DNA from: Candidatus Omnitrophota bacterium
Lineage (GTDB): Bacteria; Omnitrophota; Gorgyraeia; Gygaellales; Profunditerraquicolaceae
Length of the DNA: 50,445 bases
Assembly (NCBI GenBank): GCA_028716705.1
Contig: JAQUPI010000007.1
Location: 1-50,445 of the forward strand
Direction of reading: 5' to 3'
Below the pieces are notes generated by a model, which saw only the letters and a program-made list of their open reading frames with translations, was not told where the DNA came from and ran no database searches. Numbering within the stretch: position 1 is the first letter of the stretch; each line of letters starts with the position of its first letter. This document shows, one piece after another, positions 3,593 through 49,423 of this stretch. A program made the position numbers and the translations under genes.

Positions 3593-3594
3593 GC

Positions 3595-4566: not shown

Positions 4567-4577
4567 AGCCAAACTCC

Positions 4578-5558: not shown

Positions 5559-5565
5559 TTTAATA

Positions 5566-7553: not shown

Positions 7554-7554
7554 C

Positions 7555-8529: not shown

Positions 8530-8531
8530 TA

Positions 8532-9557: not shown

Positions 9558-9691
9558 TCGTCCTCGAAGAAACAGTTTACAAAATATTCGCAGGCCTTTT
9601 CGCAGCATAGCATCCTTCTTCTTGCCTCCTCAGCGCGGTTGTTTAAAATATCCGATATGTGATCCTGGAGTATATTCCCGAGGCCGCCCAT
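9554..9691 (-). CDS. 45-residue ORF matching only the SPASM tail of the rSAM array family (remnant or free mini-domain)
   Basis: Translated by hand. ATG at 9691 with AGGAGA 8 nt upstream; the stop overlaps the ATG of the next rSAM gene as ATGA. The product aligns only with the last 45 residues of its rSAM neighbours: LGNILQDHISDILNN corresponds to their GNIxxDxIxxIW segment, and CCEKACEYFVNCFF to their CX3CX5NCFF tail. An in-frame stop lies directly before the ATG and there is no rSAM core upstream. It is therefore either the 3' remnant of a deleted 17th paralogue that regained a ribosome-binding site, or a deliberately translated cysteine-rich peptide. The good Shine-Dalgarno and coupling to the next gene favour continued translation. 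Confidence 0.6.
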   Translation of the reverse strand: MGGLGNILQDHISDILNNRAEEARRRMLCCEKACEYFVNCFFEDE

Positions 9692-9698
9692 TTATAAT

Positions 9699-9704
9699 TC
9701 TCCT
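9699..9704 (-). promoter_or_regulatory. Ribosome-binding site of the 45-residue SPASM-tail ORF
   Basis: AGGAGA on the minus strand, 8 nt before the ATG at 9691. It is one of the better Shine-Dalgarno sequences in this operon and is the main reason to treat the small ORF as translated. Confidence 0.6.
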
Positions 9705-9765
9705 GCCCTCGCTAAAGCATCAGGCAAAGTAAGAAAAACCGCGTTTCTAAAGACCGTCTTCATAC

Positions 9766-12106: not shown

Positions 12107-12118
12107 AATAAAACGGAC

Positions 12119-13165: not shown

Positions 13166-13180
13166 TATATATTCTCCTCT

Positions 13181-14257: not shown

Positions 14258-14271
14258 CCCTGGATCTCTCC

Positions 14272-15360
14272 TTATTGCATTTTTAAATAAAAGGGGTAGT
14301 CCCCCTCAAAGAAACAATTAAGCAGAAAATGACAGTTATTTTTACAGGCAGCTATATCCTGCCTCACGCGTCCGGCTCTTTCGGAATTCCACACGCTGAC
14401 GACATCGTCGGTTTTAATATTGCCTAAGGCACCCCAACGATAACAAAGAAATATGTCCCCGGTAGAACTGATATGTACAGCCCTGTCCATATTGCACTTG
14501 GTTTTTTTGACAAACTTTTCCGGGTATTGGTAATAGGATTTAAAGGCTTCCAACTGGCAGATTTGGTTGGTTATTTTAGAGCCGTTTTTTTTGCGATTTA
14601 TTAATTCATCTATTATCGAAGAGGCCTTAAGCGGGTCCTTCGGCCAAAGGCAACTGAATTCATCCTTTTCGCGCCATTGACTGTTTTCCGGGGTGTTATT
14701 AGGCCGCATCGCGGCCATAAAATAAATTGAGTTTATCCTATCGTCATTATCTGCCCATTCGAGGAGACTTAAAATATCATCCAGGTTCTTTTCGTATATT
14801 ACGCAGCAAATGCCCTTATAGATCCCGTCGCAGAATTTCTCAAGAAAACCGACCGCGCCTTTCGCCCTGGAATAGACCCCCGGGACGCCGCGAAGATAAT
14901 CGTGCGTCTTCTCGTTTAAGCTATCCAACGATACGATTACGCTGTCTAGCCCGGAAACCGCAATACGCTTGGCCATCGCTTCATCAAGCAGATAGCCGTT
15001 CGTGGCCACATTGACCTTAAACCCTTCTTTTTTGCAGAAATGAATAAGCTCAAGGATACCTTCTTTCAAAAAAGGCTCCCCTCCGCCGAAATTTATCTGA
15101 AATGAATCCCCCGTGATCCTCCTCAGGGAAGAAGCGCAATTTTTCCAGTCGTCCAGGGACGGTTTGCCTGTTTTTTCTTTAATAAAAATGTCTTCCTTCC
15201 ATTTGTAACACATCTTACAGCTCAACATGCATTCGTCGGTAATCCCAAAGCAGGAGAATTCCGGGGCGATCAAGGGCGGCCGCCTGGTTATAAAGAGGCG
15301 CTTTATCCCGTCTTTGAGTTCATTGCCGAGTAGCTTAGTATGTTTTAAAGAAAGCAACAC
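14272..15360 (-). CDS. Radical SAM/SPASM family protein (array paralogue 13)
   Basis: 362 residues from a GTG start at 15360 with AAGGTGG upstream. A basic N-terminal extension of about 30 residues (LKDGIKRLFITRRPP) precedes the conserved FSCFGITDEC. Catalytic cysteines are C44-x3-C48-x2-C51 (CMLSCKMCYKWKE). FGGGEPFL, SLDSLNEKTHDYLRG, LWPKD and ITNQICQLEAFKSYY follow. SPASM cysteines are TKC, FLC and CKNNC-x5-C, ending in FFEGDYPF. It lies 13 nt after the small basic ORF at 15374-15523. The basic extension could associate with membrane or with an acidic partner (inference). Confidence 0.9.
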   Translation of the reverse strand: MLLSLKHTKLLGNELKDGIKRLFITRRPPLIAPEFSCFGITDECMLSCKMCYKWKEDIFIKEKTGKPSLDDWKNCASSLRRITGDSFQINFGGGEPFLKEGILELIHFCKKEGFKVNVATNGYLLDEAMAKRIAVSGLDSVIVSLDSLNEKTHDYLRGVPGVYSRAKGAVGFLEKFCDGIYKGICCVIYEKNLDDILSLLEWADNDDRINSIYFMAAMRPNNTPENSQWREKDEFSCLWPKDPLKASSIIDELINRKKNGSKITNQICQLEAFKSYYQYPEKFVKKTKCNMDRAVHISSTGDIFLCYRWGALGNIKTDDVVSVWNSERAGRVRQDIAACKNNCHFLLNCFFEGDYPFYLKMQ

Positions 15361-15541: not shown

Positions 15542-16837
15542 TCAGGGATTTCTTATGGATTTTGCCAAATTCGCTATTCCTTTTAGAAATGTTTTTTCTA
15601 TTCGGCTAAGCGAGTTAAACCTTCCGTGAATGTCCAGGTTGTGCCCGATATTATCGCAGCTCTTATAACAGCCCATATTAGAATCCGGGTCATTGCCGAT
15701 AAGAGAAAAAAAGGGATCGTTTTTTTCAAACCGGATTGTCTTCTCCCTGAATTGCCTTTGCAAAGAACCGTTCCAGATCACTCCAAAGTCCTGTTCGAGT
15801 ATGTTGCCGACCGGAAACCTGTGTGACTTAAGACAGGAATTAACATTGCCGTCTGCCAATATCCTTACAAACGCCCATCCCGCATAACAGGGCATCTTAT
15901 CTATCATATCCGAATCATATTGCGCTGTCCGGGCGCCGCTATTGGAAACCCTGCGCATAAACTGTTCAAGCCCGAATATCCGGATCTTGTTTCCAATTTC
16001 CCGGCTTTCATATTTCTCCTTCAATCGCTTACAATCCTTAAGCAAAATATCCCTCTCTCTGTCGTTTAACAATAATCTTTCGGTCTTCCCGGGAATCGTA
16101 TCTATGACCGTAAATTCTACCGCTTCTGAATTAGTCTGCAAGCCGAGTTCCACCATTTTTTCGATGTCATGGTAATTCATGTTAAAGATCACATTGTAAA
16201 GCTTTATAACGGGGGAATTACGCTTAAGTGTATTTAACCGCTTCAGCATTTCTTTTATCCTAAGAAAGGTCTCTCCGTTCTTATTGGGATGAGTAGCCGC
16301 ATAAACTTGAGGCGTCCCTGCCCAGACGCTTACAGTCAAGTGATCTATCTTTAGATCCGCCAGTTGCCCCGCTATCTTCTCATCAACCAAAGTGAAATTG
16401 GTGTTAATGTAACAGATGAAACCTTTGCGCTTCGTGTATTTAAGGATCTCGATAATTTCAGGGTGCATAAACGGCTCTCCGCCGCCCGCGTAATATATAT
16501 ACTTAGTCCCCATCTTATGCAGCTCATCAAGCAATGCCACAAGTCTTTTAAAAGGAATGGTTTGTTTTTTCACCTCGGGGTCGATCTTTTTTTCCGCCAG
16601 AAGAGGGGAATTGCACCAGCACCCTATGCAATCATTATTGCAGTTATTCGTCAGGTCTATTTGGGCAAAACCCGGCCCTTTATAAGCGCGCGAACCATCT
16701 AAGATCCCTACAGCGTCGAGATAATCGACGAAAATCCTTTTCGGTTTAAGGTAAAATGCGAATTTTTTGAATACGCCCTTTAATCCGCTATCCCTAAATT
16801 GAGACCCGACCGATCTTAGAATGGAACGCATTTTCAT
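15542..16837 (-). CDS. Radical SAM/SPASM protein of a second subfamily
   Basis: 431 residues. A 55-residue N-terminal region precedes the barrel, whose motif C66-x3-C70-x2-C73 (CNNDCIGCWC) is followed by YAGGGEPFMHPEI, where GGGEP contacts SAM. The SPASM part contains MPCYAGW, NVNSCLKSHRFPVGNI, and GCYKSCDNIGHN near the end, giving at least four cysteines for an auxiliary cluster. It is not a close relative of the array paralogues: it lacks the LRG, WPxD and NPVSQL blocks. It resembles the rSAM half of the 1114-residue protein encoded at 19035-22379 (shared HP-x-I-x-E/DERF region and the Asn-Tyr-x-x-(I/M)-E motif). It starts 2 nt after the B12-rSAM gene. Probably a sugar- or peptide-modifying enzyme of unknown substrate. 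Confidence 0.85.
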   Translation of the reverse strand: MKMRSILRSVGSQFRDSGLKGVFKKFAFYLKPKRIFVDYLDAVGILDGSRAYKGPGFAQIDLTNNCNNDCIGCWCNSPLLAEKKIDPEVKKQTIPFKRLVALLDELHKMGTKYIYYAGGGEPFMHPEIIEILKYTKRKGFICYINTNFTLVDEKIAGQLADLKIDHLTVSVWAGTPQVYAATHPNKNGETFLRIKEMLKRLNTLKRNSPVIKLYNVIFNMNYHDIEKMVELGLQTNSEAVEFTVIDTIPGKTERLLLNDRERDILLKDCKRLKEKYESREIGNKIRIFGLEQFMRRVSNSGARTAQYDSDMIDKMPCYAGWAFVRILADGNVNSCLKSHRFPVGNILEQDFGVIWNGSLQRQFREKTIRFEKNDPFFSLIGNDPDSNMGCYKSCDNIGHNLDIHGRFNSLSRIEKTFLKGIANLAKSIRNP

Positions 16838-16839
16838 TT

Positions 16840-19038
16840 TCAGCTGGACTTTCGTTTGCTAAAATCCTCTTCAACGATCTTTATTATCCCCGAGAATAAT
16901 TTATGTATACCGGGAGCGTATCCGGCATCCCCATTTTTATTGAAGGCTTTTACCCCGATCATGCGCGCCCCTGCCCCCGCGGGAAAAACCACATTCTTTA
17001 CCAGCGGAACATAGTTGGCGTTGTTTTCTGATAAATCCAACAATACAGTAGGTATCTGGCCTCTTAGTTTTTTTCTGCCTCTCAGGCCGATAAAAATACT
17101 TTTCGGATTTCTAAGCTCCGCTTCCATGGTATTATGCACAGGCGGGAAAAAGCCTTCCCCCCAGGAATCTACCCATTTAAGATATCTTTCCGATAAGATA
17201 ACTCCGATTTTCTTTTTGGGGATTTTTATCTCTTTTTTAATGTTTATTTCTATGTCCCAGGAGATCTGCTTTTCGTCTATAACCTTGATTTTCCATATTT
17301 CATCAAGGGCTAAGTTTTCCAGCCTTCTCCTCAGCAGAAATTCATTGGCATTCAACTTCTGCGTATTCCACGGATAAACTTTTTCCCTTTCGAATTTTTC
17401 CACGTCCGGGAAGAAGGAGCTTATTAACCCTTCGGCTCGGGTTAATTTCATATTATCCCAATATAACTCTAATCCGCCCGGGGTAAAAAGCAACGTTAAC
17501 CTGCCTATCTTTAACCCGGCTTCCTTTATTTCTTTCTCTATTTCTTTTTTATAAAGAACTCTTTCTCTTAAAAACAGAAGTGCCCTCCGCGATAAAAACC
17601 TGGCTGTCTTAAACAAAGTCATAAGGAATCCGTATCTTGCCAGTGATTTCAAAATTAATTGGCAATAGCCCGCATTTATCGCGGTCTTCCTCTTGGCGCA
17701 ATGAAGTGCCCATTCTTTATATGCCGACCTTATGGCATACTGAAGATCTTTTTTTGTAATATTCCCGTACTCTATTACGCTGTTATTATTGCCGTCATAT
17801 TCGGCCCAATTATTAGAAAGCAGGCACCCTTTTTGTTCCATCTCTTTATAAAATTGCGTCCCGGGGAAAGGCGTGGCAATGGAAAATTGGATCGTAGTGG
17901 GATCCAGTCTTAGCGCGAAATCTATCGTTTTGCGTACTGTCTCTTTAGTTTCTCCGGGCAAACCGAACGTAAATGTAAGGTGGGTCTTTATGCCTAGCAT
18001 TTTCGTAAGTTTGATTATCTCTTCGGTCTTGCCGATGTCCATGTTCTTATCTATATTATCCAACAGCTTCTGGCTTGCTGATTCCACTCCGTATTTGACC
18101 GCGTACAAACCCGCCTCTCTCATGTTTTCTAAGATTTCTTCGTCCATCAGATCGGCCCTTGCCATGATCGCCCACGGGATATTCAATTTGCGTTTTTTTA
18201 CTTCGTCACAGAATAAAAGCATCCTCGCTTTCCCGATATTAAAAGTGTCGTCGTCAAAATATATCGATTTGAAGCCCATTTCTTTTGCCAAATACTCCAT
18301 CTCATCTACTACATCAGCTACGTCGCGGGTCCTGTAATGGCTGCTCTGGTACATAACCTGCGGCCAGAGACAGAATTTACATTTATAGGGGCATCCGCGG
18401 CTTGCGAGTATTTGCGCCGAAGGCAAAGGCATGTCTCCGGGCGTGTCATTATAGCGCTCCATAGGCAATCCTTCCCGTAGCGGCCAACAAAGCCCGTCCA
18501 GATCAACGACCGGCCGAGAGGGATTGATCTTTACATCTCCTGAATAATCGCGGTAAATAAGTCCTGGGACACCGCTTAAATCCCTGCCTTCCTTCAAGTG
18601 CCTGGCTAGATCCAGAAGCGCAAATTCGTATTCTCCGATAAGGACATAATTTATGAATTTGTGATTTTTAAGGAATCCCTTCTGTCTTATATTGGTGTCC
18701 GGCCCGCAGATAGTTATAGGGATGCCTTTTTCGATCTTTGCCAACAATCTTAAATCATGCTCCAGCGTAACCGTGGACGTTTCGCAAACAAGAAGGTCGG
18801 GCTTTGTCCTTTTTATCAGCCTCAGGAATTGCCCGTAGAACATATCTTCTGCGATAGCGTCGATCAAGCTGATTTCAAAGTGATGCTTTTTTAACAAAGC
18901 CGCGCTGTAGGATAAAAAGAAGGGGAAAGGCAGATAATCCCTTTCTGTCGGGCCTTTTAAATGCGGCCACCGGGAACCGGCCCTTACGCCCGTCCGGGCA
19001 AGAGTCCTCCAGGGAAGGTTGACAAGCGCTATCTTCAT
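16840..19038 (-). CDS. B12-binding radical SAM protein with a C-terminal copy of the shared operon module
   Basis: 732 residues. Residues 1-180 form a Rossmann-like cobalamin-binding domain as in BchE/HpnJ-type proteins. The rSAM domain has C216-x3-C220-x2-C223 in SRGCPYKCKFC, then FDDDTFNI and FGLPGETKETV blocks typical of B12-rSAM enzymes, which often carry out methyl transfer or ring chemistry. A basic linker (about 430-500) leads to a C-terminal domain of about 220 residues (LTLLFTPGGLELYWDNMKL onward, including ISWDIEI and LSERYLKWV). This domain matches the modules of the exporter ATPase and of the upstream 1114-residue protein. The fusion is unusual for this family and suggests that the enzyme binds the same ligand as the exporter. 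The start overlaps the upstream stop as ATGA. Confidence 0.88.
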   Translation of the reverse strand: MKIALVNLPWRTLARTGVRAGSRWPHLKGPTERDYLPFPFFLSYSAALLKKHHFEISLIDAIAEDMFYGQFLRLIKRTKPDLLVCETSTVTLEHDLRLLAKIEKGIPITICGPDTNIRQKGFLKNHKFINYVLIGEYEFALLDLARHLKEGRDLSGVPGLIYRDYSGDVKINPSRPVVDLDGLCWPLREGLPMERYNDTPGDMPLPSAQILASRGCPYKCKFCLWPQVMYQSSHYRTRDVADVVDEMEYLAKEMGFKSIYFDDDTFNIGKARMLLFCDEVKKRKLNIPWAIMARADLMDEEILENMREAGLYAVKYGVESASQKLLDNIDKNMDIGKTEEIIKLTKMLGIKTHLTFTFGLPGETKETVRKTIDFALRLDPTTIQFSIATPFPGTQFYKEMEQKGCLLSNNWAEYDGNNNSVIEYGNITKKDLQYAIRSAYKEWALHCAKRKTAINAGYCQLILKSLARYGFLMTLFKTARFLSRRALLFLRERVLYKKEIEKEIKEAGLKIGRLTLLFTPGGLELYWDNMKLTRAEGLISSFFPDVEKFEREKVYPWNTQKLNANEFLLRRRLENLALDEIWKIKVIDEKQISWDIEINIKKEIKIPKKKIGVILSERYLKWVDSWGEGFFPPVHNTMEAELRNPKSIFIGLRGRKKLRGQIPTVLLDLSENNANYVPLVKNVVFPAGAGARMIGVKAFNKNGDAGYAPGIHKLFSGIIKIVEEDFSKRKSS

Positions 19039-22000
19039 AACGAGGCTTTATCTAAGAATTTATTGAGCTTATACTTTTCCAGCAATCCATTTATCATCAG
19101 GATCACCTGGTGGGTGTCGCAATGGCTGCAAAACTCATCGTATAATTTTCTTCCATTGCCGAAGGTGACATCTTTATTCTCCATCAGGTATTTAGCCTGT
19201 GTTCTGATTTTATTGTACGATTCGGAATCCCACAGTTGCGCGAAGTTTTTCCCGTCCAAACTTCCAAGGGTGCGCAGGTGGCAGCACATACTTAACTCTC
19301 CGCGCGCCAATGCCAGGCAAAAAAACCACCCCACGGGGCAGCCGGTCTTTAAAAAGGTTTTTCCTGCCCAGGAACCGCTGGAGGGGTCATAATTCTTTAG
19401 TTGAAAATAAATATTATCCTGCAGTTCTATATTTTCTTTCTTCAAATAAGGCGCGACTTTTTTTAGGGATTCGCTCATTGCCTCGACATGGCTGCGGCTT
19501 AATTTCAAAGACTTGATATTCTCATCTAACCGTACCAGATAAAATCTTACCTTATCCGCTCCTATATACGCATCCGCTTTGGCCATCTCTTCCATTTCCT
19601 GATAGTTCAAATTGTGGATAACATGGCTCATCTGCAATATCGGCTTGTCCCTGCCGGAAGCCTTTCTTAACGATATAAGACCCTTTAAATTCTCAACGAT
19701 CAAAGGGAATGTATCTTTGGATTGTTTAGGATTTATCAATGCGTAAGTCTTATCTGTTCCCGCGGGAAGGCTGCAGAATATCTCGTTTATCTCCAGGTCC
19801 ATTATTCGCCTTGCCTTCTCTTTGTCCATAAGTATGCCGTTGGTAAAAAACAGCACCTTCATCCCCTTGTCTCTCGCGTAGCCGGCCATTTCAAAGAACC
19901 GCTCATCCAGAAGCGGCTCCCCGTCCCCCTGGAATATTATCTCATCGCTTAGTAAGCTTACCGCGTCGTCGACAATATTTTTATACAGCTGGAAATCCAT
20001 TTTTATGTTAATTGATCTCGGGGGGATCTTGCGTAAAGGCGTGTGTATCCAGCAATGGAGACAATTGGTATTGCAACGGTGATTCGTATCGATAACTATC
20101 GTCTGCGGGCCAATAAAGGGGTGTTCGCTGATGATCCCGAGCAGCCTGAGAAGCTCTTTTTCATTATATTGATCTGCCTGCAAAGAAACATTCCAGAGCA
20201 GGTCCAGTAATTCTTCGTCTTTTAAAAACAGGTTGACCTTGCTTGACGAGAGGCGTTCATTCAATTCTTTTACATATTCCCTGAAATTAGAATAAAGGTT
20301 TTTTACCGGGAAAAGTTTTAAGGAAATGGAACGCAGGTCTTGACGCCTGTTTATCAGCCCGGAACAGAACTGGGCAATTGTATTCAGTTTGAAGAAGTTA
20401 AGTCTCGAAATGCCAATTTTCAGATTAATGCTTTCTTTTCTTGCCGACCGTATCCTTGATATTATTCTTTCAAAGTCGCCGTCTTCAGAACTGATCTTAT
20501 CGTGTAATTCCGGACGATCCCCGAATATATATTCGCTTCTTTCTTCTTTCGGAGTGATCCTCTTTATATCCTCTTTAAATATTGAAAAGGCATTTTCCTT
20601 GGCTTCTTTTTCTTTCCGCCGCTTCTCCTCTTCGGCTTCTCTTTCTTTTCTACGCATCTCCTCTTCTTGAGCCTTTCTCAGCTGTTCCTGTTCCTGCTTG
20701 ACCCTCAGCTCTTCCAGCCGCTTTCTCTCTTCTATATATTTTTTCCGCTGCTCGATCTGCCGCCTTCTTTCTTCTTCCTCTGCTTGGCGTATTTTATTCA
20801 AGGCGACTTCCAGGACAGCCTTGTCGGCGTAAAGCTGGATAACGGCTTTTAGATAAGGATAAGTTCCCGGCCGGTAAAGCTCTTTTTCCTCCTCAAACTG
20901 CACTTCCACTACCCGGGAAGAAAGATTGGCGTCCGTATTGGATATCAACAGCGAGGCTTTTGTATCCTGCAAATTCTTCAGGGTTATGTCTGGAAGGTTG
21001 TCTGAAGATGAAATCACCCCTATGAATTCAGGGTTATCCGCGGCTGAATTCATGCACTGCCATCCGGAATTAAAACCAGGGGAGAAATGCTCCTGCTTGG
21101 GAGGGGCAACCCATTCCTTGTACGCTTTGGATAAAAATAGGGCGGCATTCCGGCGATCTATGCGCAGGGGCTGTTTGATCTCAACATCTACATCCCAGGT
21201 AAGTTTTCCCTCGGCATTAAGTTCCAAATGCCAGGTTTGAATAAGAGGGAGGCGATTATGGGTAAGCCTGACAACCATTTCATGGGAAGAGGGTTTTTCT
21301 ATTTGCGCATGCGAATCCACAGAGCTGTACCAATTGCTTTCGCAAAGTATCCCGAAATTAAGGCCGCTTCCCTTGGTTGATTCATTATTTTTATAGTAAA
21401 TATGCATCTGGTTCTGATGGTCAAAATAGAGCCGGAAAGGACCGTTATCTAAGTTGCGGCGTTTCTCGTCTTCGTCCCGGGCCTTGCGCAAGAGCGCTTC
21501 TTCCTTTTCCTTTAGTTCCAGCTGGAGTTTTCGCTCTTCTTCCCTGGCTTCTTCCTGGGCCTTGCGCAAGAGCGCTTCTTCCTTTTCCTTTAGTTCCAGC
21601 TGGAGTTTTCGCTCTTCTTCCTCCGCTTGTCTTATTTTCTCAAGGATATCCTGCAAAATAGCCTTATCGCCGTAAAACTGGATTACGGATCTCAGGTAAG
21701 GGTATGGCCCCGGCCGGTAGAGTTCTTTCCCCTCCTCAAACTGCACTTCCATTACCCGGGAAGAAAGATTGGCGTCCGTATTGGATATCAACAGCGAGGC
21801 TTTTGTATCCTGGCATTCCTTAAGGATAATATCGGGAAAATCGTCTTTTAGAGAGGCGCACCCGATAAAATCAACCGCCTCTTTGGGCAAATTTACAGGC
21901 TGCCAGCAGGGGCCGAACTCTGGCGAGAACGCATCTGTTCTTTGGGGGATTACCCATCGCGAATATGACTTAGATAAGAAAATTTTAGCGCTTTTTAGAT

Positions 22001-22379
22001 CTATACGCAGCGGTTCCTTTAATTCCATATCTACATCCCATATGATGCTGCCTTCGCCGGTTATCTTAATCCGCCAGATCTGGTCCGCGGGCAGGGTAGG
22101 CGACTTCACGTTAATCCTTAACTCCTGCTCCGATATTTTGTTAACCTCAAACTCCGAATCCGAAGAATAATGCCTCGCGCCTTCCGATAATATCTCTGTA
22201 CTTAATCCGCAGTGCTTGGTCAATTCGTTTTCTTTAAAATACAGTCTCGCTCTTTTTTGGTTATCGAAGATTATTTTCAGCTCGCCATTCTGTATTGTCC
22301 GGGAATCGGTATTCTCCTTCTCCGATATCCTGTTATATTCTTCTATTTTATTCTTTAATTTTGCTATTAATGGCCACAT
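19035..22379 (-). CDS. Large fusion: two shared modules, two coiled coils and a C-terminal radical SAM/SPASM domain
   Basis: 1114 residues with an ATG at 22379 and AGGAGG about 11 nt upstream. Layout by eye: module A (about 30-245); a Glu/Lys coiled coil (245-305) containing a perfect internal repeat; module B (about 310-528); a second coiled coil (528-605, EEERRRQIEQRKKYIEERK type); a mixed region (605-750); and a rSAM domain (about 755-1090) with CNTNCLHCW and QGDGEPLLDE, where GDGE replaces the usual GGE. The SPASM part has TGCPVGW, MCCHLR and FCSHCDTH cysteines. Modules A and B share an almost identical C-terminal half. The coiled coils suggest oligomerisation or a long reach between the ligand-binding modules and the catalytic domain. 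It is the largest enzyme of the operon and the one most closely tied to the exporter by shared domains. Confidence 0.88.
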   Translation of the reverse strand: MWPLIAKLKNKIEEYNRISEKENTDSRTIQNGELKIIFDNQKRARLYFKENELTKHCGLSTEILSEGARHYSSDSEFEVNKISEQELRINVKSPTLPADQIWRIKITGEGSIIWDVDMELKEPLRIDLKSAKIFLSKSYSRWVIPQRTDAFSPEFGPCWQPVNLPKEAVDFIGCASLKDDFPDIILKECQDTKASLLISNTDANLSSRVMEVQFEEGKELYRPGPYPYLRSVIQFYGDKAILQDILEKIRQAEEEERKLQLELKEKEEALLRKAQEEAREEERKLQLELKEKEEALLRKARDEDEKRRNLDNGPFRLYFDHQNQMHIYYKNNESTKGSGLNFGILCESNWYSSVDSHAQIEKPSSHEMVVRLTHNRLPLIQTWHLELNAEGKLTWDVDVEIKQPLRIDRRNAALFLSKAYKEWVAPPKQEHFSPGFNSGWQCMNSAADNPEFIGVISSSDNLPDITLKNLQDTKASLLISNTDANLSSRVVEVQFEEEKELYRPGTYPYLKAVIQLYADKAVLEVALNKIRQAEEEERRRQIEQRKKYIEERKRLEELRVKQEQEQLRKAQEEEMRRKEREAEEEKRRKEKEAKENAFSIFKEDIKRITPKEERSEYIFGDRPELHDKISSEDGDFERIISRIRSARKESINLKIGISRLNFFKLNTIAQFCSGLINRRQDLRSISLKLFPVKNLYSNFREYVKELNERLSSSKVNLFLKDEELLDLLWNVSLQADQYNEKELLRLLGIISEHPFIGPQTIVIDTNHRCNTNCLHCWIHTPLRKIPPRSINIKMDFQLYKNIVDDAVSLLSDEIIFQGDGEPLLDERFFEMAGYARDKGMKVLFFTNGILMDKEKARRIMDLEINEIFCSLPAGTDKTYALINPKQSKDTFPLIVENLKGLISLRKASGRDKPILQMSHVIHNLNYQEMEEMAKADAYIGADKVRFYLVRLDENIKSLKLSRSHVEAMSESLKKVAPYLKKENIELQDNIYFQLKNYDPSSGSWAGKTFLKTGCPVGWFFCLALARGELSMCCHLRTLGSLDGKNFAQLWDSESYNKIRTQAKYLMENKDVTFGNGRKLYDEFCSHCDTHQVILMINGLLEKYKLNKFLDKASL
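20888..20969. repeat. 82-bp near-identical direct repeat, copy 1 (inside module B)
   Basis: Matches 21731-21812 with a single mismatch that I can see. It encodes the NTDANLSSRV-containing end of module B. The flanking parts of the two modules are far more diverged, which points to gene conversion or selection on this segment. Confidence 0.85.
21479..21621. repeat. In-frame tandem duplication of 78 bp in the coiled-coil region
   Basis: Two copies of a unit of about 63 bp, beginning at 21481 and 21559 (period 78 bp, 26 codons). They are identical over the segment encoding EERKLQLELKEKEEALLRKA. A 26-residue step keeps an approximate heptad register, so it lengthens the coiled coil without breaking it. 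Confidence 0.85.
21731..21812. repeat. 82-bp near-identical direct repeat, copy 2 (inside module A)
   Basis: Partner of 20888-20969 in the same orientation and reading frame, encoding the corresponding end of module A. The two copies are 843 bp apart. Confidence 0.85.
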
Positions 22380-22400
22380 GGAAATTTATTCCTCCTCACC

Positions 22401-23450
22401 TTATCCTGCGCACTCCGATGCTAAGCTGTCTTCTGCTTCGTAGCCGCAATTAATTAAGATATGACAATTTGCTTTGCATTTTCTTATCTTTTCTCTCATG
22501 CGGTCAGCTGTTTTGGAATACCATATGTCTTTAGGAAGGTCGGTCTTTATATTCCCGATCACCGGCATCATCCCGCAGGTACGTACATCCCCGAACTGGT
22601 CTACGGTCATATAAAAATCCACGTTGCAAGCGGATTTCCTGATAAATCTTCCCGGATTATCAAAATATGTTTTAAATATTTCCAGCTGGCAGAAAGTATT
22701 AGCGATCTTGTATCCGGAATGTTTCAGTCTTATCAATTCATCAATTACCCGGTGGACCCGCGTTATATTTTTCGGCCATAGCGTATTGTATTCCTTTTTT
22801 TTATGCCAGCCATTGACAGGAGGCGTAAAAAATGTCTGCGCCAGCGCCTGAAAGCAAATGTGGTCTATCCTTTTACGAGCCTCGGCCCATTCGGTTAACC
22901 CGATGATCTCGTCCAGATTATTCTCTAATATCACCGTTTGGATGCCTATCGTAAGGCCGCCGCAATGCTTATCCAGATGATCTATGCCCTGCATGACTTT
23001 ATCGTAACAGCCTTCTGTGCCTCTTAAAAAATCATGGGTAGACCGGTTCATACTATCGAGTGAAATAGTTATCGAATTCAGCCCGCTGCGGGATATCCTG
23101 CGGGCCTTATCCGCATCTATCAGAAAACCGCTGGTATTCAAGGAAGTGCATAGGCCTCTGTCGGAGCAAAAAGCGATTAAATCCAAATTCCTGCTGTCAG
23201 ATAATGGTTCCGCTCCCGAGAAATTTATCTCTATAGAATCCTCGCTTAATTCGGCGAGCAGACTGATAAAATCCTTCCATTCGTTCAGGGTCGGCTGCCT
23301 GCCGGAATTAGCGCCTCTCAACTTCCAGGCAAAGCACATTTTGCATTTAAGTAAACATACCGAAGAAATTTCTATACAGCAGAACGCGGGGCGGCGGGTT
23401 TGCGCAGACCTGCTTTCAGATCTTAAGAAACTATCTGATTTATATTGCAT
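22401..23450 (-). CDS. Radical SAM/SPASM family protein (array paralogue 14), GGE changed to GAE
   Basis: 349 residues from the ATG at 23450, 2 nt after the upstream stop; a TTG at 23456 is the longer alternative. Catalytic cysteines are C32-x3-C36-x2-C39 (CLLKCKMCFAW). The SAM-contacting element reads FSGAEPLS: the second Gly of the family GGE is Ala, an unusual change. SLDSMNRSTHDFLRG, LWPKN (Asn for Asp) and IANTFCQLEIF are further deviations from the consensus. SPASM cysteines are SAC, RTC and CKANC-x5-C. It shares HCGGLTIGIQTVI and related stretches with paralogue 15, its clear sister. Whether the Ala weakens SAM binding is uncertain. Confidence 0.88.
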   Translation of the reverse strand: MQYKSDSFLRSESRSAQTRRPAFCCIEISSVCLLKCKMCFAWKLRGANSGRQPTLNEWKDFISLLAELSEDSIEINFSGAEPLSDSRNLDLIAFCSDRGLCTSLNTSGFLIDADKARRISRSGLNSITISLDSMNRSTHDFLRGTEGCYDKVMQGIDHLDKHCGGLTIGIQTVILENNLDEIIGLTEWAEARKRIDHICFQALAQTFFTPPVNGWHKKKEYNTLWPKNITRVHRVIDELIRLKHSGYKIANTFCQLEIFKTYFDNPGRFIRKSACNVDFYMTVDQFGDVRTCGMMPVIGNIKTDLPKDIWYSKTADRMREKIRKCKANCHILINCGYEAEDSLASECAG

Positions 23451-23452
23451 AA

Positions 23453-24487
23453 TCAATTCCCGATGTTCTGTCTGATCTCATTCCCTAAAAGCGGCGGATG
23501 CTCTTCCTTGTAACAGCAATTCACCAGATGATGGCAATTATCCCTGCATTTACCCATTTCTTTTCTTATCCGGTCTACCTTCTGAGAATGCCAAAATTCT
23601 TCCGGAGCGAACGTCCTTATATTACCTATGGATTCTTTACGTAAGCATAAGAATATGTCTCCAAATTGATTTATATTCATATAATTCTCGCTTACGTTGC
23701 ATTTTCCCTGTTTGATAAATTTACCGGGGTCAGCGAAATACGCCTTAAAGATTTCTAATTGAGAAACCGGGTTGGTTATTTTATATCCGGACCCTTTCAG
23801 CCTTATCAATTCATCAATGACATTGTTTACCCTGTGCGTATCCCTGGGCCACAAAAAAGCGTATTCACTTTTGTTATGCCACTCAAGATCAAGCGGGGTA
23901 TTAAAAGGATGTTCTATTGCCTGAAAAACAATGTACCTGATCCTTCGATGCGCGTTGACCCACTCAGTCAGCCTGATAACCTCATCCAAATTCCTATCGG
24001 ATATAACTGTCTGGATGCCTATGGTAAGATGGCCGCAGTGTCTTTCAAGATGATCGATCCCTTTCATTATTTTATCGTAAGAGCCCTGCACGCCCCTTAA
24101 GAAATCATGGGTATTTTCGTCGATGCCGTCCAAAGAAATACCGATCACGTCTAATCCGCTCCGCGCGATTGAGGACGCCATTTCCTTATTTATAAGAAAA
24201 CCGTTGCTCGATAATGAAGTGTATACCCCTTTTTTCGCGGCAAAATCAACGAGTTTTAAGTTCCTTTCATCCAGCAAAGGTTCTCCCCCGGCAAGATTGA
24301 TCTCGACTGTATTTTCGCCCAGATCAGCCAACAGGCTGATAAAATTATACCACTCCTGTAATGTAGGCTCCTGTTCAGTTCTTTCATATTTATTTTTCCA
24401 GAAAAAACACATCTTGCACTTAAAGATGCATTCCTGGGAAATGCCGATGCAGCAAAAAATGCGCTTAGGAATAATCTGTGTAATCAT
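23453..24487 (-). CDS. Radical SAM/SPASM family protein (array paralogue 15)
   Basis: 344 residues from the ATG at 24487, overlapping the upstream gene by 23 nt. A TTG at 24541 would extend it 54 nt further into that gene and adds no conserved residues. The motif C20-x3-C24-x2-C27 lies in CIFKCKMCFFW. LAGGEPLL, SLDGIDENTHDFLRG, FLWPRD and ITNPVSQLEIF follow in canonical order. SPASM cysteines are GKC, FLC and CRDNC-x5-C. It is the intact sister of paralogue 14; the two share long stretches between residues 150 and 260. An active enzyme is predicted, possibly acting on the same substrate class as paralogue 14. Confidence 0.88.
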   Translation of the reverse strand: MITQIIPKRIFCCIGISQECIFKCKMCFFWKNKYERTEQEPTLQEWYNFISLLADLGENTVEINLAGGEPLLDERNLKLVDFAAKKGVYTSLSSNGFLINKEMASSIARSGLDVIGISLDGIDENTHDFLRGVQGSYDKIMKGIDHLERHCGHLTIGIQTVISDRNLDEVIRLTEWVNAHRRIRYIVFQAIEHPFNTPLDLEWHNKSEYAFLWPRDTHRVNNVIDELIRLKGSGYKITNPVSQLEIFKAYFADPGKFIKQGKCNVSENYMNINQFGDIFLCLRKESIGNIRTFAPEEFWHSQKVDRIRKEMGKCRDNCHHLVNCCYKEEHPPLLGNEIRQNIGN

Positions 24488-25457
24488 TCTCTTTAAAAGA
24501 GCAGTTGAGCAGAAAATGACAAAATTTCTTACATCCGGCAATCTCGCTCCTTATCCGGGCCGCTTCCCGCGAATGCCAAATCTCGTCGATAGTATTATCC
24601 CTGACGTTGCCTATGGGGCCCTTGGAGAAACAAAGATATACGTCACCGTATGGATCTATGTTTATATCGCGTTCTCCTATAGTGCAATTCAAATTTTTAC
24701 AAGCGCAGAGCGGATCCTCAAAATATTTCGCGAACATTTTAAGCTGAGAACTCGTATTGGCTATTTTCTTATTCCGGGCCTTCTTGATCGTAATCCGCTC
24801 CATAGCTCTCTTCGCCTTTGCGGTATCTTGCGGCCACATAAACTTGTAGCCGTCATTTTTAAACCAGTTAACGTCCCGGCCCGCTCCGAAAGGAAACATG
24901 GGTGCCAAGTACAAAATGTAATCTATCCGCCCGTCTTCTTGAACCCAATCGGCCATATCTACGGCTTCTTCCAGGTTTACATCCATGATAATGGTCTGTA
25001 TATTTATTCCGATATCCGGACCGATCTTAGACAAATAATCCATGGCCTTAAAAACTTTTGCATAGGAGCCCTTCCTGCCGCGCAAATAATCGTGCACTTC
25101 TTCCTTTAAGCTGTAAAGAGAAATGCATACCCTCCACAAACCGGCGTCCGCCAGTTTCCTTGCCAATTCATCATCTATTAAGAAAGCGTTTGTTTGCAGG
25201 GAGACCCTATACCCGATCCTGGAACAATGGGAAATTAAATCTATCAGGCCTTCCTTGAGAAGCGGTTCACCGCCGGTAATAATAATATCGGTTTTTTTAT
25301 CCAACACTTTAGGCAAATGGGTCAGCGCTTCTTTCCATTTTTCCGCGGGCAGCTCCCTCGAAAAATCCTCCTTCTGCTTCCATATATAACAGGCCCTGCA
25401 TTGCATCAAACATTTTAAAGTAACGGAAAAACAACAATAACTCGGGTGCTCATTCAT
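24465..25457 (-). CDS. Radical SAM/SPASM family protein (array paralogue 16, nearest the exporter)
   Basis: 330 residues with an ATG at 25457, 18 nt after the exporter ATPase gene. It is the first rSAM gene of the transcript. Its cluster motif C16-x3-C20-x2-C23 is CLMQCRACYIW, whereas most other members carry KMC (one has RMC). ITGGEPLLKE, SLYSLKEEVHDYLRG (Tyr for Asp of SLDS), FMWPQD and IANTSSQLKMF follow. SPASM cysteines are NLNC, YLC and CKKFC-x5-C, ending in SFKEND. The Asp-to-Tyr change in SLDS and the RAC variant set it apart, so a distinct substrate is plausible (inference). Confidence 0.9.
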   Translation of the reverse strand: MNEHPSYCCFSVTLKCLMQCRACYIWKQKEDFSRELPAEKWKEALTHLPKVLDKKTDIIITGGEPLLKEGLIDLISHCSRIGYRVSLQTNAFLIDDELARKLADAGLWRVCISLYSLKEEVHDYLRGRKGSYAKVFKAMDYLSKIGPDIGINIQTIIMDVNLEEAVDMADWVQEDGRIDYILYLAPMFPFGAGRDVNWFKNDGYKFMWPQDTAKAKRAMERITIKKARNKKIANTSSQLKMFAKYFEDPLCACKNLNCTIGERDINIDPYGDVYLCFSKGPIGNVRDNTIDEIWHSREAARIRSEIAGCKKFCHFLLNCSFKENDYTDYS

Positions 25458-25475
25458 TTTTATGTATGAAATTTT

Positions 25476-28301
25476 TTAAGATATTATTCTGATTTGCCCT
25501 TCGAAACATTCATTTCTAAAATCGGTTTTTTGATTCAAATCCACTTCATACTGAAGAACGCGCGCCTGAAACAGGTCATCGGTATTTTCAATAATCGAAT
25601 AACACGCCTGAGAATCCGCAGCCGCGCAGTCCAGGATAACCGAAGGTAAAGATCCCCTGCTTAAAAATCCCCCTTTGAATTTACATTTTTTGATCATTAT
25701 CGGCGATCCCGCTTTCCCGCTCCACAATCTGTCCCAGAGCAGGCCATCGTGTTCCTTGAATTTACCGGGGAATTTACCGCAAGCCAGCTCCGGGACGGAC
25801 CATTCTTTATACTTGTCAGACAGCATAAGATTCACCTGCATTCTTTTTAAGGCGGCTTCTTCCCAAATCTCTTTTGTTACCTTGAAGTAAATCTTCGCTT
25901 CATCCAATATAGATATCTCCCATAACTGGGTCAGGGGGATGTAAGGCCAATAGCCGGTTGCCACTAATTTATCTTTGCCCAGCTTTTCGATCTCCCAAAA
26001 TGCCTGCGACGAGTCGCGCCAGACGTCTTTAAAGAGAACGGAAGAATAAAGACCAAGCCCCTTGGTCAATTCCGTGCCTTTCCAGCAGATTTTCCCTTTA
26101 CCGTTATCAAAAAATAATGTAACGCCGTCATATTCTATTTTTCCGGATGAACCGGTAACGTGCTTTTCTGTGCGTGGGTTATCAAGCGATAATCTTTCCG
26201 GTTCATTTTCCCGCTCTTTATCCGCAAAGATGTTTATTTTACCGGTAAAATATTTATAATTGCCCGGGGGAGTATAAAATTTTTCTTTACGATCTATCTC
26301 CACAAAACGCAGCGTTGTAGCGGGAGCGTCTTCCATGGTTTTAAAGATATAAGAAGATTTCGGATATTCGTCACCGTATCTTAATAGGATTCCCGGGCAA
26401 ACCACGCTGTCTTCTTTATAGACACCCGCTACTCCTATGCAGTCGTTTGTATACTTGCCTAAAATAACGGCGTTGCCTCTTTTTTCAAGCTTGTCAAAAT
26501 CTCCGGATCCATCAAAAGTAAGCCATTTTTCGTACTCAGTGCAAAGCGTTAACTCCACTTGTTTGTTTCTTAACTTTACTTTTTTGTCGATATTCATTTC
26601 TATGTCCCATGAGATCAATTCCTGACTCTGCGATTTAAGCGTCCAAGTCTGAATAAACCGGGGGTCGTTATCCCAATTGATATTAATGACGACCGCGTCA
26701 TTGTTCTTCTTTATGATCTCCCAGCAGCCTTCGATAGCGCTGTAATCTCTATCCTCATACCGGAAGAATGTATTCATCCCCGGACCGGATGTGATTAGTT
26801 TGTCCTGCCAATAAATCTCGACTCGCTTATTTTTACAAAAAATCCTCAAGGACCCGTTATTTATCACGGGCGGTCCGCTAATTGAACGTTTGGCGTCTTT
26901 CAGGTAATCGGCCAGGCTATCTGATTCTTCCGGTTCAAATATCACCGCTTTACTCAGGAAATACCTGGTATATTTTTCTTTGATAAAATTGATGTTTGAA
27001 GTCGCGGGAAAAACCTGATAGTGAATGAACCTGCTGCTGATGTCAGCTCCTGTATTTCCCAGTTGGCATGCGGTCCTGGCATAATCTTGCAATCTATCAA
27101 AAACAACCACCGGCAATTTTATCCCGCTATTTTCTCCTCCCTTGATCCCGACCAAACCGTTATCGGGATCCAGGATGCTTATAGCCTCCCCCTCAGTTTC
27201 ATGAATAAAATTTTCTGGAAAGGCATTCTCATTGCATAAGGTAAGCCAACTTTTGTATTTATCGGTGAAAAAAATCCTCGTATCGGCTTTATCTATAGAG
27301 ATACCGCCCAATACCTGAATGGCTATTTCCCATAAGAATTCCCTTTCATTTAAAATAGCTATCTTCCAACGCTGCCTAACGCCAACATCCGGCCACTCCC
27401 CGATAGCGACTATTTCCTGGTCTGTATCCGATTTTTTTACCTGCCAATCGGCCATAGTAGAAAGGTATTCGCGGCCTGAAATCGACATAATACTGTGCCC
27501 GCCAGAATTGGATGTGACGGTTTCTTCCTTCCATCTTAGGGCAAGCGTTCCGTTATTGAAGATTATACCAAGTGCATCTTTTTGCGCGATCGCTATTCCC
27601 CTCCTGTCTCCCACGGTCTCCATGTAATAATTACTCACTGAACTTATCGGCCCATCTTTGATGATCTTGCCCTCCCTAAGAAAAATGCTGCGGGTACAGA
27701 TCCTTTTCAGCATTTCTATATCCTGAAGGGCAAAAATAATGGTCGCTCCTTTCTCCTTCAGTTCCAGTATTTTCTTAAAACATTTGCGCTGCGCGTAGAT
27801 ATCCCCGACAGCGAATATATCATCTATCAAAAGGATGTCCGGATCAACGTGGATAGCGATAGAGAAAGCGAGACGGAAAAACATACCCTGGGAGTAGCAT
27901 TTGACCGGCGCGTTAATGAATTTGCCCAAAGAGGCGAAGTCTACGATCTCATCATACTTCTCTTCGGTCTCCTTGCGGCTTAAACCGAATAGTCCGGCAT
28001 TCAAATAAATATTTTCCTTTCCTGTAAATTCCGGTTGAAAACCCGCGCCTAATTCCAAAAGCCCGGAGACCCTTCCGGAGACGGTAACCTCTCCCCGGTC
28101 GGGCTTTAACATTCCCGCGATCAATTTCAAAACCGTAGTCTTGCCTGAACCGTTTTCTCCGATTATCCCTACGGCTTCTCCTTTACCTATCTCAAAGCTT
28201 ATGCCTTTTAAAGCGCAAAAATCTTCCCAAGATACTTTATTATCAAGGGTAAATTTTATTTTGTATATTTCCCACGCGTCTTTGAACCGGATTACCTTCA
28301 T
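25476..28301 (-). CDS. Polysaccharide ABC exporter ATPase (Wzt/TagH class) with three C-terminal shared modules
   Basis: 941 residues, about twice the usual length of Wzt-type ATPases. The ATPase domain (1-230) has Walker A GENGSGKT at 48-55, Q-loop Q89, signature YSQGM at 136-140 and Walker B ILLID at 156-160. The position after Walker B, normally the catalytic Glu, is D161 (LLIDDIFAVGD). The switch His is Q193 (FALQD), so ATP hydrolysis may be slow or regulated. Residues about 240-470, 478-705 and 720-941 are three copies of a domain with a conserved pattern: a short beta-rich start ending in (I/L)xW, a QxW-x-I segment, a WDI/WEI strand, then (L/F)(S/T)xxYKxW. In Wzt proteins the C-terminal domain binds the glycan terminus before export, and the same role is inferred here. 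The permease gene ends 1 nt before its ATG. Confidence 0.9.
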   Translation of the reverse strand: MKVIRFKDAWEIYKIKFTLDNKVSWEDFCALKGISFEIGKGEAVGIIGENGSGKTTVLKLIAGMLKPDRGEVTVSGRVSGLLELGAGFQPEFTGKENIYLNAGLFGLSRKETEEKYDEIVDFASLGKFINAPVKCYSQGMFFRLAFSIAIHVDPDILLIDDIFAVGDIYAQRKCFKKILELKEKGATIIFALQDIEMLKRICTRSIFLREGKIIKDGPISSVSNYYMETVGDRRGIAIAQKDALGIIFNNGTLALRWKEETVTSNSGGHSIMSISGREYLSTMADWQVKKSDTDQEIVAIGEWPDVGVRQRWKIAILNEREFLWEIAIQVLGGISIDKADTRIFFTDKYKSWLTLCNENAFPENFIHETEGEAISILDPDNGLVGIKGGENSGIKLPVVVFDRLQDYARTACQLGNTGADISSRFIHYQVFPATSNINFIKEKYTRYFLSKAVIFEPEESDSLADYLKDAKRSISGPPVINNGSLRIFCKNKRVEIYWQDKLITSGPGMNTFFRYEDRDYSAIEGCWEIIKKNNDAVVININWDNDPRFIQTWTLKSQSQELISWDIEMNIDKKVKLRNKQVELTLCTEYEKWLTFDGSGDFDKLEKRGNAVILGKYTNDCIGVAGVYKEDSVVCPGILLRYGDEYPKSSYIFKTMEDAPATTLRFVEIDRKEKFYTPPGNYKYFTGKINIFADKERENEPERLSLDNPRTEKHVTGSSGKIEYDGVTLFFDNGKGKICWKGTELTKGLGLYSSVLFKDVWRDSSQAFWEIEKLGKDKLVATGYWPYIPLTQLWEISILDEAKIYFKVTKEIWEEAALKRMQVNLMLSDKYKEWSVPELACGKFPGKFKEHDGLLWDRLWSGKAGSPIMIKKCKFKGGFLSRGSLPSVILDCAAADSQACYSIIENTDDLFQARVLQYEVDLNQKTDFRNECFEGQIRIIS

Positions 28302-28302
28302 T

Positions 28303-29082
28303 TTAAATCCTCTTCAAAATTTTCGATTCCAGGCTTAAAAAAACCCATAAACCTGAAGTCAAACTGATAAACGCCCAGAAAAAGGCCCCGATGGACATCG
28401 AAAGGTTAGGCATATGCCCGTTAAAAATAACCTCCTGATAGCTTGCGATATAAGGGACCACCGGGTTAAAGTTATATATCCAGCGGAATCTTTCAGGGAT
28501 CATATCTATAGAGTAAAACACGGGTGTTACCCAAAGCCAGAACATTAATAGGGTGCCGCTGAGCTGTCCGATATCCCGGAAAAAAACGTTCAAAACGGAT
28601 AATGCCAAACTCAATCCGCAAACAAAAAAGAAAAATAAAAGCGAAACCAGGACGAACAACGGCAGCAATAAGACGATTTTCGGGTTAAAAAATATGAATA
28701 GAGGATAAATAATCAGCCACCCGAAAAAGAAATTTAAAAAATTAGATAGGACCGAACTCAGGGGCAGGATCTCCCGGGGCAAGTTGAACTGGCGCAGAAT
28801 GCTTTGCTGGCCCAGTATTGAAAAAGTTGCTTCCTGCAAGGCTCCGGAAAAGAAAAACCAGGGGAAAATCCCCGAAAGGACAAAAAAAGAGAAATTCTTT
28901 ATTTCCGCTTTGAACACATAGAGAAAGACAAATGTTATCGCCAGCATGATCAAAAGGGGATTTATCACTGCCCAAGCGACGCCCAGAATAGAATTTTCGT
29001 ATCTGGCCTTGAATTGCTTAAGAGACATCTCCCATAAAGCCCGGCGATAAAAATATATCTTTCCTAATCTGCCCAATACCAT
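28303..29082 (-). CDS. Polysaccharide ABC exporter permease (Wzm/TagG class, ABC-2 type)
   Basis: 259 residues from the ATG at 29082; a TTG one codon earlier is possible. A cytoplasmic N-terminal helix with the family hallmark WEMSLKQFKARYENSILG and AWAVINPLL is followed by about six membrane segments, including FVLSGIFPWFFFSGAL, FNLPREILPLSSVL (the coupling region) and FNPVVPYIASYQEVIF near the end. Length and layout are those of ABC-2 permeases that export O-antigen, teichoic acid or other lipid-linked glycans across the inner membrane. It pairs with the ATPase gene immediately downstream. The presence of this pair is the main reason to think the operon product is an exported, lipid-anchored glycan. 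Confidence 0.92.
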   Translation of the reverse strand: MVLGRLGKIYFYRRALWEMSLKQFKARYENSILGVAWAVINPLLIMLAITFVFLYVFKAEIKNFSFFVLSGIFPWFFFSGALQEATFSILGQQSILRQFNLPREILPLSSVLSNFLNFFFGWLIIYPLFIFFNPKIVLLLPLFVLVSLLFFFFVCGLSLALSVLNVFFRDIGQLSGTLLMFWLWVTPVFYSIDMIPERFRWIYNFNPVVPYIASYQEVIFNGHMPNLSMSIGAFFWAFISLTSGLWVFLSLESKILKRI

Positions 29083-29128
29083 CAATAATGCGCTTTTTCG
29101 TTATTCAACGGTAAAGATTCTCTGAATT

Positions 29129-30427
29129 TTATCGAAAGCGGTCTGTTGCCGTTTTGCCTTCCAGCATGGTCTCTTCCATGGACATATAACGCCAGGAGCC
29201 ATAACGGCCGCAGGATACAATATTATGCTTGGCAAGCTCTCCGAGAATTTTTCCCCGGGCAAGCTTATAATTTTTATCACAGATCGGATAGCCGTATTCT
29301 ATATCGTTTATATCCCGTACTAAAATACCGGAATGCTCCCCGACAATCCCGGCCTTTCTTAAGTCTTTTATAATCTGCGAAGCGATCTTCCCCTTATCTA
29401 TTGTCCGGCCGGTAGAATATGAAACTTCGGCGTATAAAGAAGTATGCCTTGCCGGAGCAAGGTCGCTGGCAAAGTTATTAAAAAAACCGGCGCGGAAAAA
29501 ACAGGGTTCTTTATGGGGGAAATATATCCAGTGCCTGCCCAAAGCGTCTTCCTCTTTTACTCCCAAATTAAGGTTAAAGATTGAATTCCATTTTAACTTT
29601 TTAAACGACTTACGAACTTCTTCCGGCAAACTCCGGATAAGATTTGATATTTCCGGAAGGGGTATCGTAGAAATAAGATAGTCGAATTTTTCACCGTTTC
29701 CGATTGAAAACTTTATCTCTTTATTTTTGAGGTTGATTTCCGAAATCGCACAACCCGTATGGATATTCCGGATCCTCTCCGCAAAAGCCGACGGCAATGA
29801 GCCTATGCCTCCTTTTTTAGGATACCAGAACCTAGCGTTGTAACCAAATTCCTTGTTACTTTCTTCAATTGTACCTTCCAGCAATTGAGGTAAAGAAGGC
29901 ACGGGGATAAACCCATCCAGCCATTCGCTGGTCAGCTCTTTGGGGGGAAGCGTCCAAAATTTTGTGTTGTAGGGGATCATGAAATGCTTTGCTATCCCAC
30001 TACCAAAAGCTCGCTTTACCCAGCTCAGAAAGTCTTTGCATTTTTGGCGGTGATGACCGTTTTTTTGCGCCTGAATAAATCCTATAAGGCATTCCTTAAT
30101 TATAGATGGGGGTAAACCGTAAAGATTGGCTTGAAATGGATAGTGGACATATGTGCCAAAAGCATAAATCCATGAGTTCCTTCGGTGTTCTACAAGATTG
30201 TTTCCGAGAAGTTCTTTAACTAAGTCTAAAGTGTACCGGTGCTTGAAATGCAGAAGATGGCCATCATAATCAAAGGTAAATCCGTTTATTTTCTTGGAGC
30301 GGCATAAGCCCCCTACTTCCGTTTCCTTTTCAAAAATTTGGCAATCTATGCCCCTTTTTTGCAGGTGCCAGGCCGCGCTCAGGCCGGCGAGGCCTGCCCC
30401 GAGGATGATGATTTTCTTCCTGAACAT
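29129..30427 (-). CDS. FAD-dependent oxidoreductase resembling UDP-galactopyranose mutase/protoporphyrinogen oxidase
   Basis: 432 residues from the ATG at 30427, which overlaps the upstream stop as TAATG; this removes 37 poorly conserved residues of a TTG-initiated reading. The N-terminal GAGLAGLSAA at the dinucleotide-binding fold is followed by FEKETEVGGLCRS, and FDYDGHLLHF resembles the region lining the flavin in UDP-galactopyranose mutases. GRYGSWRYMSMEETM at the end matches the second FAD-binding block. Such proteins in polysaccharide clusters catalyse ring contraction of UDP-sugars or related redox changes. The exact reaction is not certain, because several amine-oxidase-like families share these motifs. 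About 46 nt separate it from the permease. Confidence 0.85.
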   Translation of the reverse strand: MFRKKIIILGAGLAGLSAAWHLQKRGIDCQIFEKETEVGGLCRSKKINGFTFDYDGHLLHFKHRYTLDLVKELLGNNLVEHRRNSWIYAFGTYVHYPFQANLYGLPPSIIKECLIGFIQAQKNGHHRQKCKDFLSWVKRAFGSGIAKHFMIPYNTKFWTLPPKELTSEWLDGFIPVPSLPQLLEGTIEESNKEFGYNARFWYPKKGGIGSLPSAFAERIRNIHTGCAISEINLKNKEIKFSIGNGEKFDYLISTIPLPEISNLIRSLPEEVRKSFKKLKWNSIFNLNLGVKEEDALGRHWIYFPHKEPCFFRAGFFNNFASDLAPARHTSLYAEVSYSTGRTIDKGKIASQIIKDLRKAGIVGEHSGILVRDINDIEYGYPICDKNYKLARGKILGELAKHNIVSCGRYGSWRYMSMEETMLEGKTATDRFR

Positions 30428-47667: not shown

Positions 47668-47671
47668 GGGA

Positions 47672-49420: not shown

Positions 49421-49423
49421 CGG

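Follow-up and report, generated by a model that had tools for sequence, protein, structure and literature searches.

A domain module shared by a Wzt-type exporter ATPase and neighboring radical SAM enzymes in Omnitrophota is a candidate for glycan recognition

Why would the ATPase of a glycan exporter carry the same domain as the radical SAM (rSAM) enzymes encoded beside it? A few cases are known in which the modification of a glycan is coupled to its export; there, the Wzt_C domain reads methyl, phosphate, or Kdo caps. The question arises from a 50,445-nucleotide stretch of DNA from a Candidatus Omnitrophota bacterium, which is here called the window. Six homologous modules of ~215 residues lie on its minus strand: three in an ABC ATPase, two in an 1114-aa rSAM protein, and one in a B12-type rSAM (B12-rSAM) protein (Table 1). 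A preliminary description of the window had assigned six copies of one domain to these three proteins, and all six were recovered where it had placed them.

Table 1. Module copies, their host proteins, and the surrounding gene cluster in the window
Feature	Position	Strand	Evidence
Array of 12 further ~325-362-aa rSAM/SPASM paralogues, broken by a GDSL-TPR protein	1570..15360	-	Pfam
431-aa rSAM/SPASM protein; elsewhere fused to the module (B12rSAM-MOD-rSAM431-MOD)	15542..16837	-	Pfam; fusions in other genomes
732-aa B12-type rSAM protein with C-terminal module, HpnJ-like	16840..19038	-	PF04055 8.9e-23
Module at C terminus of B12-type rSAM protein (residues 503-725)	16864..17532	-	HMM E 3e-51
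1114-aa rSAM/SPASM protein	19035..22379	-	Pfam; linkers read from sequence
Module copy 2 of 1114-aa rSAM/SPASM protein (residues 304-520)	20820..21470	-	HMM E 1e-64
Module copy 1 of 1114-aa rSAM/SPASM protein (residues 23-239)	21663..22313	-	HMM E 5e-64
Three module-free rSAM/SPASM proteins between ATPase and 1114-aa rSAM protein	22401..25457	-	Pfam
Wzt-type ABC ATPase, whole protein	25476-28301	-	
Module copy 3 of Wzt-type ATPase (residues 717-941)	25479..26153	-	HMM E 3e-63
Module copy 2 of Wzt-type ATPase (residues 475-695)	26217..26879	-	HMM E 2e-60
Module copy 1 of Wzt-type ATPase (residues 233-458)	26928..27605	-	HMM E 3e-57
ABC nucleotide-binding domain of Wzt-type ATPase (residues 1-232)	27606..28301	-	PF00005 2.7e-19
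Wzm-type ABC-2 permease, partner of the ATPase	28303..29085	-	PF01061 8.2e-16
UDP-galactopyranose-mutase (UGM)-like flavoprotein	29129..30538	-	PF01593; PDB 4dsg 1.3e-51
GT4-type polyprenyl-phosphate sugar-phosphate transferase, likely initiating enzyme	30427..31401	-	PF00953 1.3e-31

The segments belong to a single domain family, as had been proposed. When only the three ATPase copies went into the profile, it still found the two copies of the 1114-aa protein (E values of 1e-23 and 1e-22, calculated for a database size of one million sequences) and the B12-rSAM copy (2e-19, on the same scale), and reversed proteins and the other open reading frames of the window scored ~0 bits; the likeness is thus not due to chance. 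The QxW, WDI, and YxxW motifs by which the domain had originally been recognized are real. The six copies matched no Pfam family, even at an E value of 10, and a search of PDB sequences with the module profile returned only chance matches to a Golgi protein (E values of 0.06-0.1). The module is an undescribed domain family, whose only copies in this genome, as evidenced by a genome-wide search, are the six in the window.

An alignment of 129 module copies revealed which residues define the family. With numbering according to the third ATPase segment (window 25479-26177), conservation is strongest at W86, F136, Y123, P178, W126, T38, W61, G42, N198, Q84, and R206, and W86, Y123, W126, F136, and P178 are conserved in more than 90% of copies. 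The conserved set is mostly aromatic, plus T, Q, N, R, and D/S. No His column is conserved, and no Glu is strongly so (the best, E36, is present in 82/129); these alignment columns speak against the module being an aldose-1-epimerase (GalM) enzyme, in which catalytic His residues and a Glu are conserved.

The host proteins can be assigned to known families. The ATPase has a C-terminal extension, and its gene adjoins that of an ABC-2 permease within a glycan cluster, as in Wzm/Wzt-type exporters; the PDB entry nearest to the ATPase is Aquifex aeolicus Wzt (8dku; 1.2e-66). Its Walker B motif (within residues ~160-200) reads ILLIDD rather than ending in DE, and its H-loop reads IIFALQD, with Gln for His; in the listed motifs, the Walker B Asp recurs in ~43 of 50 module-bearing Wzt proteins, and Glu occupies this position in the six module-free ones. 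The 1114-aa protein is a radical SAM/SPASM enzyme, in which two modules, each followed by a Glu/Lys-rich linker, precede the rSAM (residues 767-934) and SPASM (residues 1014-1087) domains; PF04055 (54.3 bits) and PF13186 (23.4 bits) both score above their cutoffs, and the CxxxCxxC motif is present as CNTNCLHC. Its linkers (residues 240-304 and 520-600) are long and coiled-coil-like, and in relatives they vary in length or are absent. The 732-aa B12-type rSAM protein matches PF02310 (1.4e-05) below that family's cutoff. Its closest NCBIfam model is HpnJ, a hopanoid-associated radical SAM protein (TIGR03471), but its score falls below the cutoff of that model (263.4 against 577.6 bits), and it differs from HpnJ in having the module and in being encoded within a glycan-export cluster.

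Radical SAM genes are abundant throughout the window. Between positions 1570 and 25457, ~18 of them occupy 24 kb, of which 15 encode SPASM paralogues of ~325-362 aa, mostly in a row around the GDSL-TPR protein. Positions 43234 to 50440 show an alternation of PMT-like GT-C genes with genes for B12-type radical SAM or rSAM proteins. The window contains no GT2 gene; GT1 and GT2 genes flank other clusters.

A model of the third ATPase module, made with AlphaFold2 from the 129-copy alignment (pLDDT of 93.1, pTM of 0.90, ~20 strands), predicts a galactose-mutarotase-like supersandwich fold, which is what the preliminary description had guessed. Structural comparison by VIA-align gave Z scores of ~15-18.5 over ~195-205 residues to aldose-1-epimerase-like proteins and to glycosidase and polysaccharide lyase supersandwich domains, the majority being sugar active. 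The top rows were glycosidase supersandwich domains (Z of 18.5, 195 residues, 2.8 Å) and aldose-1-epimerase-like proteins (PDB 3nre; Z of 17.7, 203 residues, 3.0 Å), followed by LacZ-type, GH38, GH97, and lyase domains. Foldseek agreed on the fold class, and its list also held YidC and a viral capsid protein; because the supersandwich fold occurs in these two as well, the fold alone is no proof of sugar binding. The entire three-module ATPase tail, modeled separately (pLDDT of 81, pTM of 0.61), repeats an identical strand order three times, and its modules 1 and 3 match the same structures (module 1, Z of 17.6 to 3nre). Profile homology carries the predicted fold over to the copies in the 1114-aa and B12-type rSAM proteins, which probably share it. 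Relative to the galactose-mutarotase-like superfamily (e.g., Escherichia coli b2544 [3nre] and GH2, GH38, GH97, and PL supersandwich domains), however, the module has only ~10% identity, lacks a conserved His and a Pfam match, and is fused to Wzt and rSAM proteins rather than to hydrolases.

In the ATPase, the module lies directly behind the ATPase domain, the position of the carbohydrate-binding domain in Wzt exporters. The parallel that had been drawn with that domain holds for its place but, at the sequence level, not for its family, as evidenced by the lack of any match to Wzt_C (PF14524) for the ATPase at an E value of ≤1 or for any module at an E value of ≤10, and by an hhalign comparison of the 129-copy profile with a canonical Wzt_C domain (probability of 0.2%). 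The same kind of search does detect PF14524 in three loci labeled Proteobacteria (L138), Desulfobulbaceae (L140), and archaeon (L120), where the same B12-rSAM family (47-48% identical) is module free and Wzt ends in PF14524. Moreover, the genome under study encodes two other proteins with PF14524, one of them carrying it twice, on separate contigs (C2 and C30 of genome G000; L177 and L178), indicating that the module is not simply the Wzt_C of this lineage but forms part of this system. Structures of Wzt_C, a jelly roll with a strand-swapped dimer, are absent among the VIA-align and Foldseek matches listed, an absence that excludes nothing.

The sharing of the module between exporter and radical enzymes recurs across many genomes. 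The unbiased sample comes from two module searches, in which the six-copy profile found the module in 23 of 98 genomes (the genome under study and its relatives) and a larger profile found it in 36 of 190 genomes of the phylum. Separately, 80 loci were collected with the B12-rSAM domain as bait, and this sample is therefore biased toward clusters with B12-rSAM genes. Most of these loci are labeled Omnitrophota; the few module-bearing loci outside it are labeled CSSED10-310 and Deltaproteobacteria, along with one Caldisericota and one Elulimicrobium record. Architectures in the 80 loci include Wzt-MODn (34), MODn-B12rSAM (17), MODn-rSAM/SPASM (11), B12rSAM-MOD-rSAM431-MOD (8), B12rSAM-MOD (6), and rarer ones. 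In total, these loci contain 34 Wzt-module proteins and about 50 rSAM-module proteins. The usual gene order is GT4, UGM-like, Wzm, and Wzt-MODn, followed by module-bearing rSAM genes. Wzt proteins carry 1 to 11 modules, most of them two to five, and the neighboring rSAM proteins carry 1 to 4; the largest Wzt protein, with 11 copies, has 2743 aa (L153:7429-15660). C-terminal modules are also found on GT-C mannosyltransferase-like proteins, in nine loci (L059-L062, L064, L116, and L162-L164), and stand-alone module proteins lie beside Wzt in two (L105 and L158). Six loci (L055, L057, L067, L153, L159, and L160) have Wzt modules without module-bearing rSAM genes in reach. In four loci (L098, L095, L122, and L137), the N terminus of the MOD-B12rSAM protein has a conserved GGLxYAxxRGIKYFIF-like stretch before the module, which is possibly a membrane-surface anchor.

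Natural fusions tie some of these components together. One relative encodes Wzt-MOD-MOD-B12rSAM-MOD-rSAM431 in a single 1902-aa frame (L046:9067-14775). At its Wzt/rSAM junction (...SEQISVKPVVAKVLFVNLPWR...), the methionine with which other B12-rSAM proteins begin is missing; this argues against the simple loss of a stop codon. No second Wzt-rSAM fusion was found in 147 genomes of the class, and this type is known from one genome. Four other relatives encode a GT2 glycosyltransferase fused to an rSAM/SPASM protein of the array family (L055:13095-14999, L057:1062-3002, L067:939-2870, and L159:4199-6103), providing a link between this rSAM family and glycan assembly that does not depend on the module. 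The N-terminal part of these 634-646-aa rSAM proteins was also considered as a divergent module and rejected, as it is the GT2 glycosyltransferase.

Modules cluster by their position in the protein and not by genome, indicating old position classes. The nearest module in another locus belongs to the same class for 24/24 B12N, 8/8 r431C, 26/27 rSbN, and 42/49 WztLast modules. Between classes, identity within a locus exceeds that between loci by about 0.01-0.02 at most, which gives no strong sign of codiversification; such an excess is at most slight and is what shared ancestry would give. From sequence comparison, the classes fit specialized modules, and they neither support nor exclude a common ligand.

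Described export systems offer partial precedents. Export of lipid-linked glycans in A. aeolicus, E. coli O9a, and Klebsiella is gated by a domain that follows the Wzt ATPase and binds the glycan at its modified end (PMC9445017, PMC11231755). The window shares with the Wzm/Wzt O-antigen exporters of A. aeolicus and E. coli O9a (PF14524) an ABC-2 permease, an ATPase with an extra C-terminal beta domain and a match to 8dku, and the presence of partner enzymes, which in those systems modify the glycan. However, the published C-terminal domain is a jelly roll (PMC9445017), whereas the module is of another sequence family, is modeled as mutarotase-like, occurs in 1 to 11 copies, and is shared with radical enzymes. 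The Klebsiella O7 terminator ORF6, which combines a methyltransferase-kinase, a predicted immunoglobulin-like carbohydrate-binding module (CBM), and a coiled coil, was the only terminator known at the time to have a CBM (PMC11231755). ORF6 resembles what is proposed for the module-bearing enzymes of the window in being a chain modifier of an ABC-exported glycan with its own binding domain and coiled coil; it differs in the immunoglobulin-like fold and in being a methyltransferase-kinase. In literature coverage lying mostly outside subscription journals, no report was found that connects radical SAM enzymes with Wzm/Wzt modules.

An exporter and the adjacent radical enzymes thus share a module whose predicted fold is that of sugar-handling proteins, and this points to a link between the modification of one glycan and its export. 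We propose that the module is probably a noncatalytic glycan-recognition domain of both glycan-finishing enzymes and exporter, one that couples modification to export. By analogy with the described exporters, events could run as follows. The cluster would build a polyprenyl-linked glycan by means of its GT4 and UGM-like enzymes, and radical SAM enzymes would modify it at the cytoplasmic face, with the modules of the module-bearing ones holding the glycan during the reaction. The tandem modules of Wzt (three in the window) would then pick the same finished glycan for export via Wzm, thereby doing what the carbohydrate-binding Wzt_C domain does in O-antigen exporters. This proposal draws on the sugar-active fold relatives, the Wzt_C position, the recurrence of the architecture, the Wzt-rSAM fusion, the GT2-rSAM fusions, the GT1/GT2 neighbors, and the aromatic conserved residues. 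Counted against it are the occurrence of the fold in YidC and a capsid protein, the position classes, the six loci with Wzt modules only, the lack of a GT2 gene in the window, and the restriction of the Wzt-rSAM fusion to one genome.

Some of these observations would suit other readings. The tandem repetition (1 to 11 copies), the strong position classes, the stand-alone module proteins beside Wzt, and the one direct fusion could all belong to a scaffold, in which Wzt and rSAM modules bind each other or a common partner and assemble a membrane-bound synthesis-export complex without touching the sugar. We consider this unlikely, given that the closest solved fold relatives are mostly sugar active and that the module replaces Wzt_C, a binder of glycan caps. 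The similarity to aldose-1-epimerase relatives (Z of ~15-17.7) might instead point to an enzyme of mutarotase, epimerase, or lyase type acting on the sugar chain, but the lack of a conserved His and of a strongly conserved Glu, the largely aromatic conserved set, the absence of a Pfam match, and tandem arrays reaching 11 copies, which are atypical of a catalytic domain, leave little chance of that. Similarly, it is very improbable that the substrate is a peptide or lipid, with the rSAM/SPASM array maturing peptides as in RiPP systems: the SPASM-type enzymes do match mainly peptide, cofactor, or heme maturases in NCBIfam, but GT4 and UGM-like genes lie beside Wzm, GT2 is fused to rSAM/SPASM proteins in relatives, GT1 and GT2 genes flank other clusters, and the partner enzyme is HpnJ-like.

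The proposed coupling between modification and export is plausible and well motivated. A more specific version of this proposal, which we offer tentatively and hold to be possible rather than probable, is that of a radical-SAM export checkpoint. A mark installed by rSAM enzymes would license the lipid-linked glycan for export, replacing methyltransferase/kinase terminators, and enzyme and exporter would read the chain with the same new lectin modules of mutarotase fold.

With a new domain family, apparently of a different fold, standing in for Wzt_C and occurring on radical enzymes as well, the licensing of export would be extended to radical chemistry. Also, because a single soluble module is amenable to expression and ligand testing, the module provides a first handle on the role of the long radical SAM arrays in Omnitrophota, a poorly known group.
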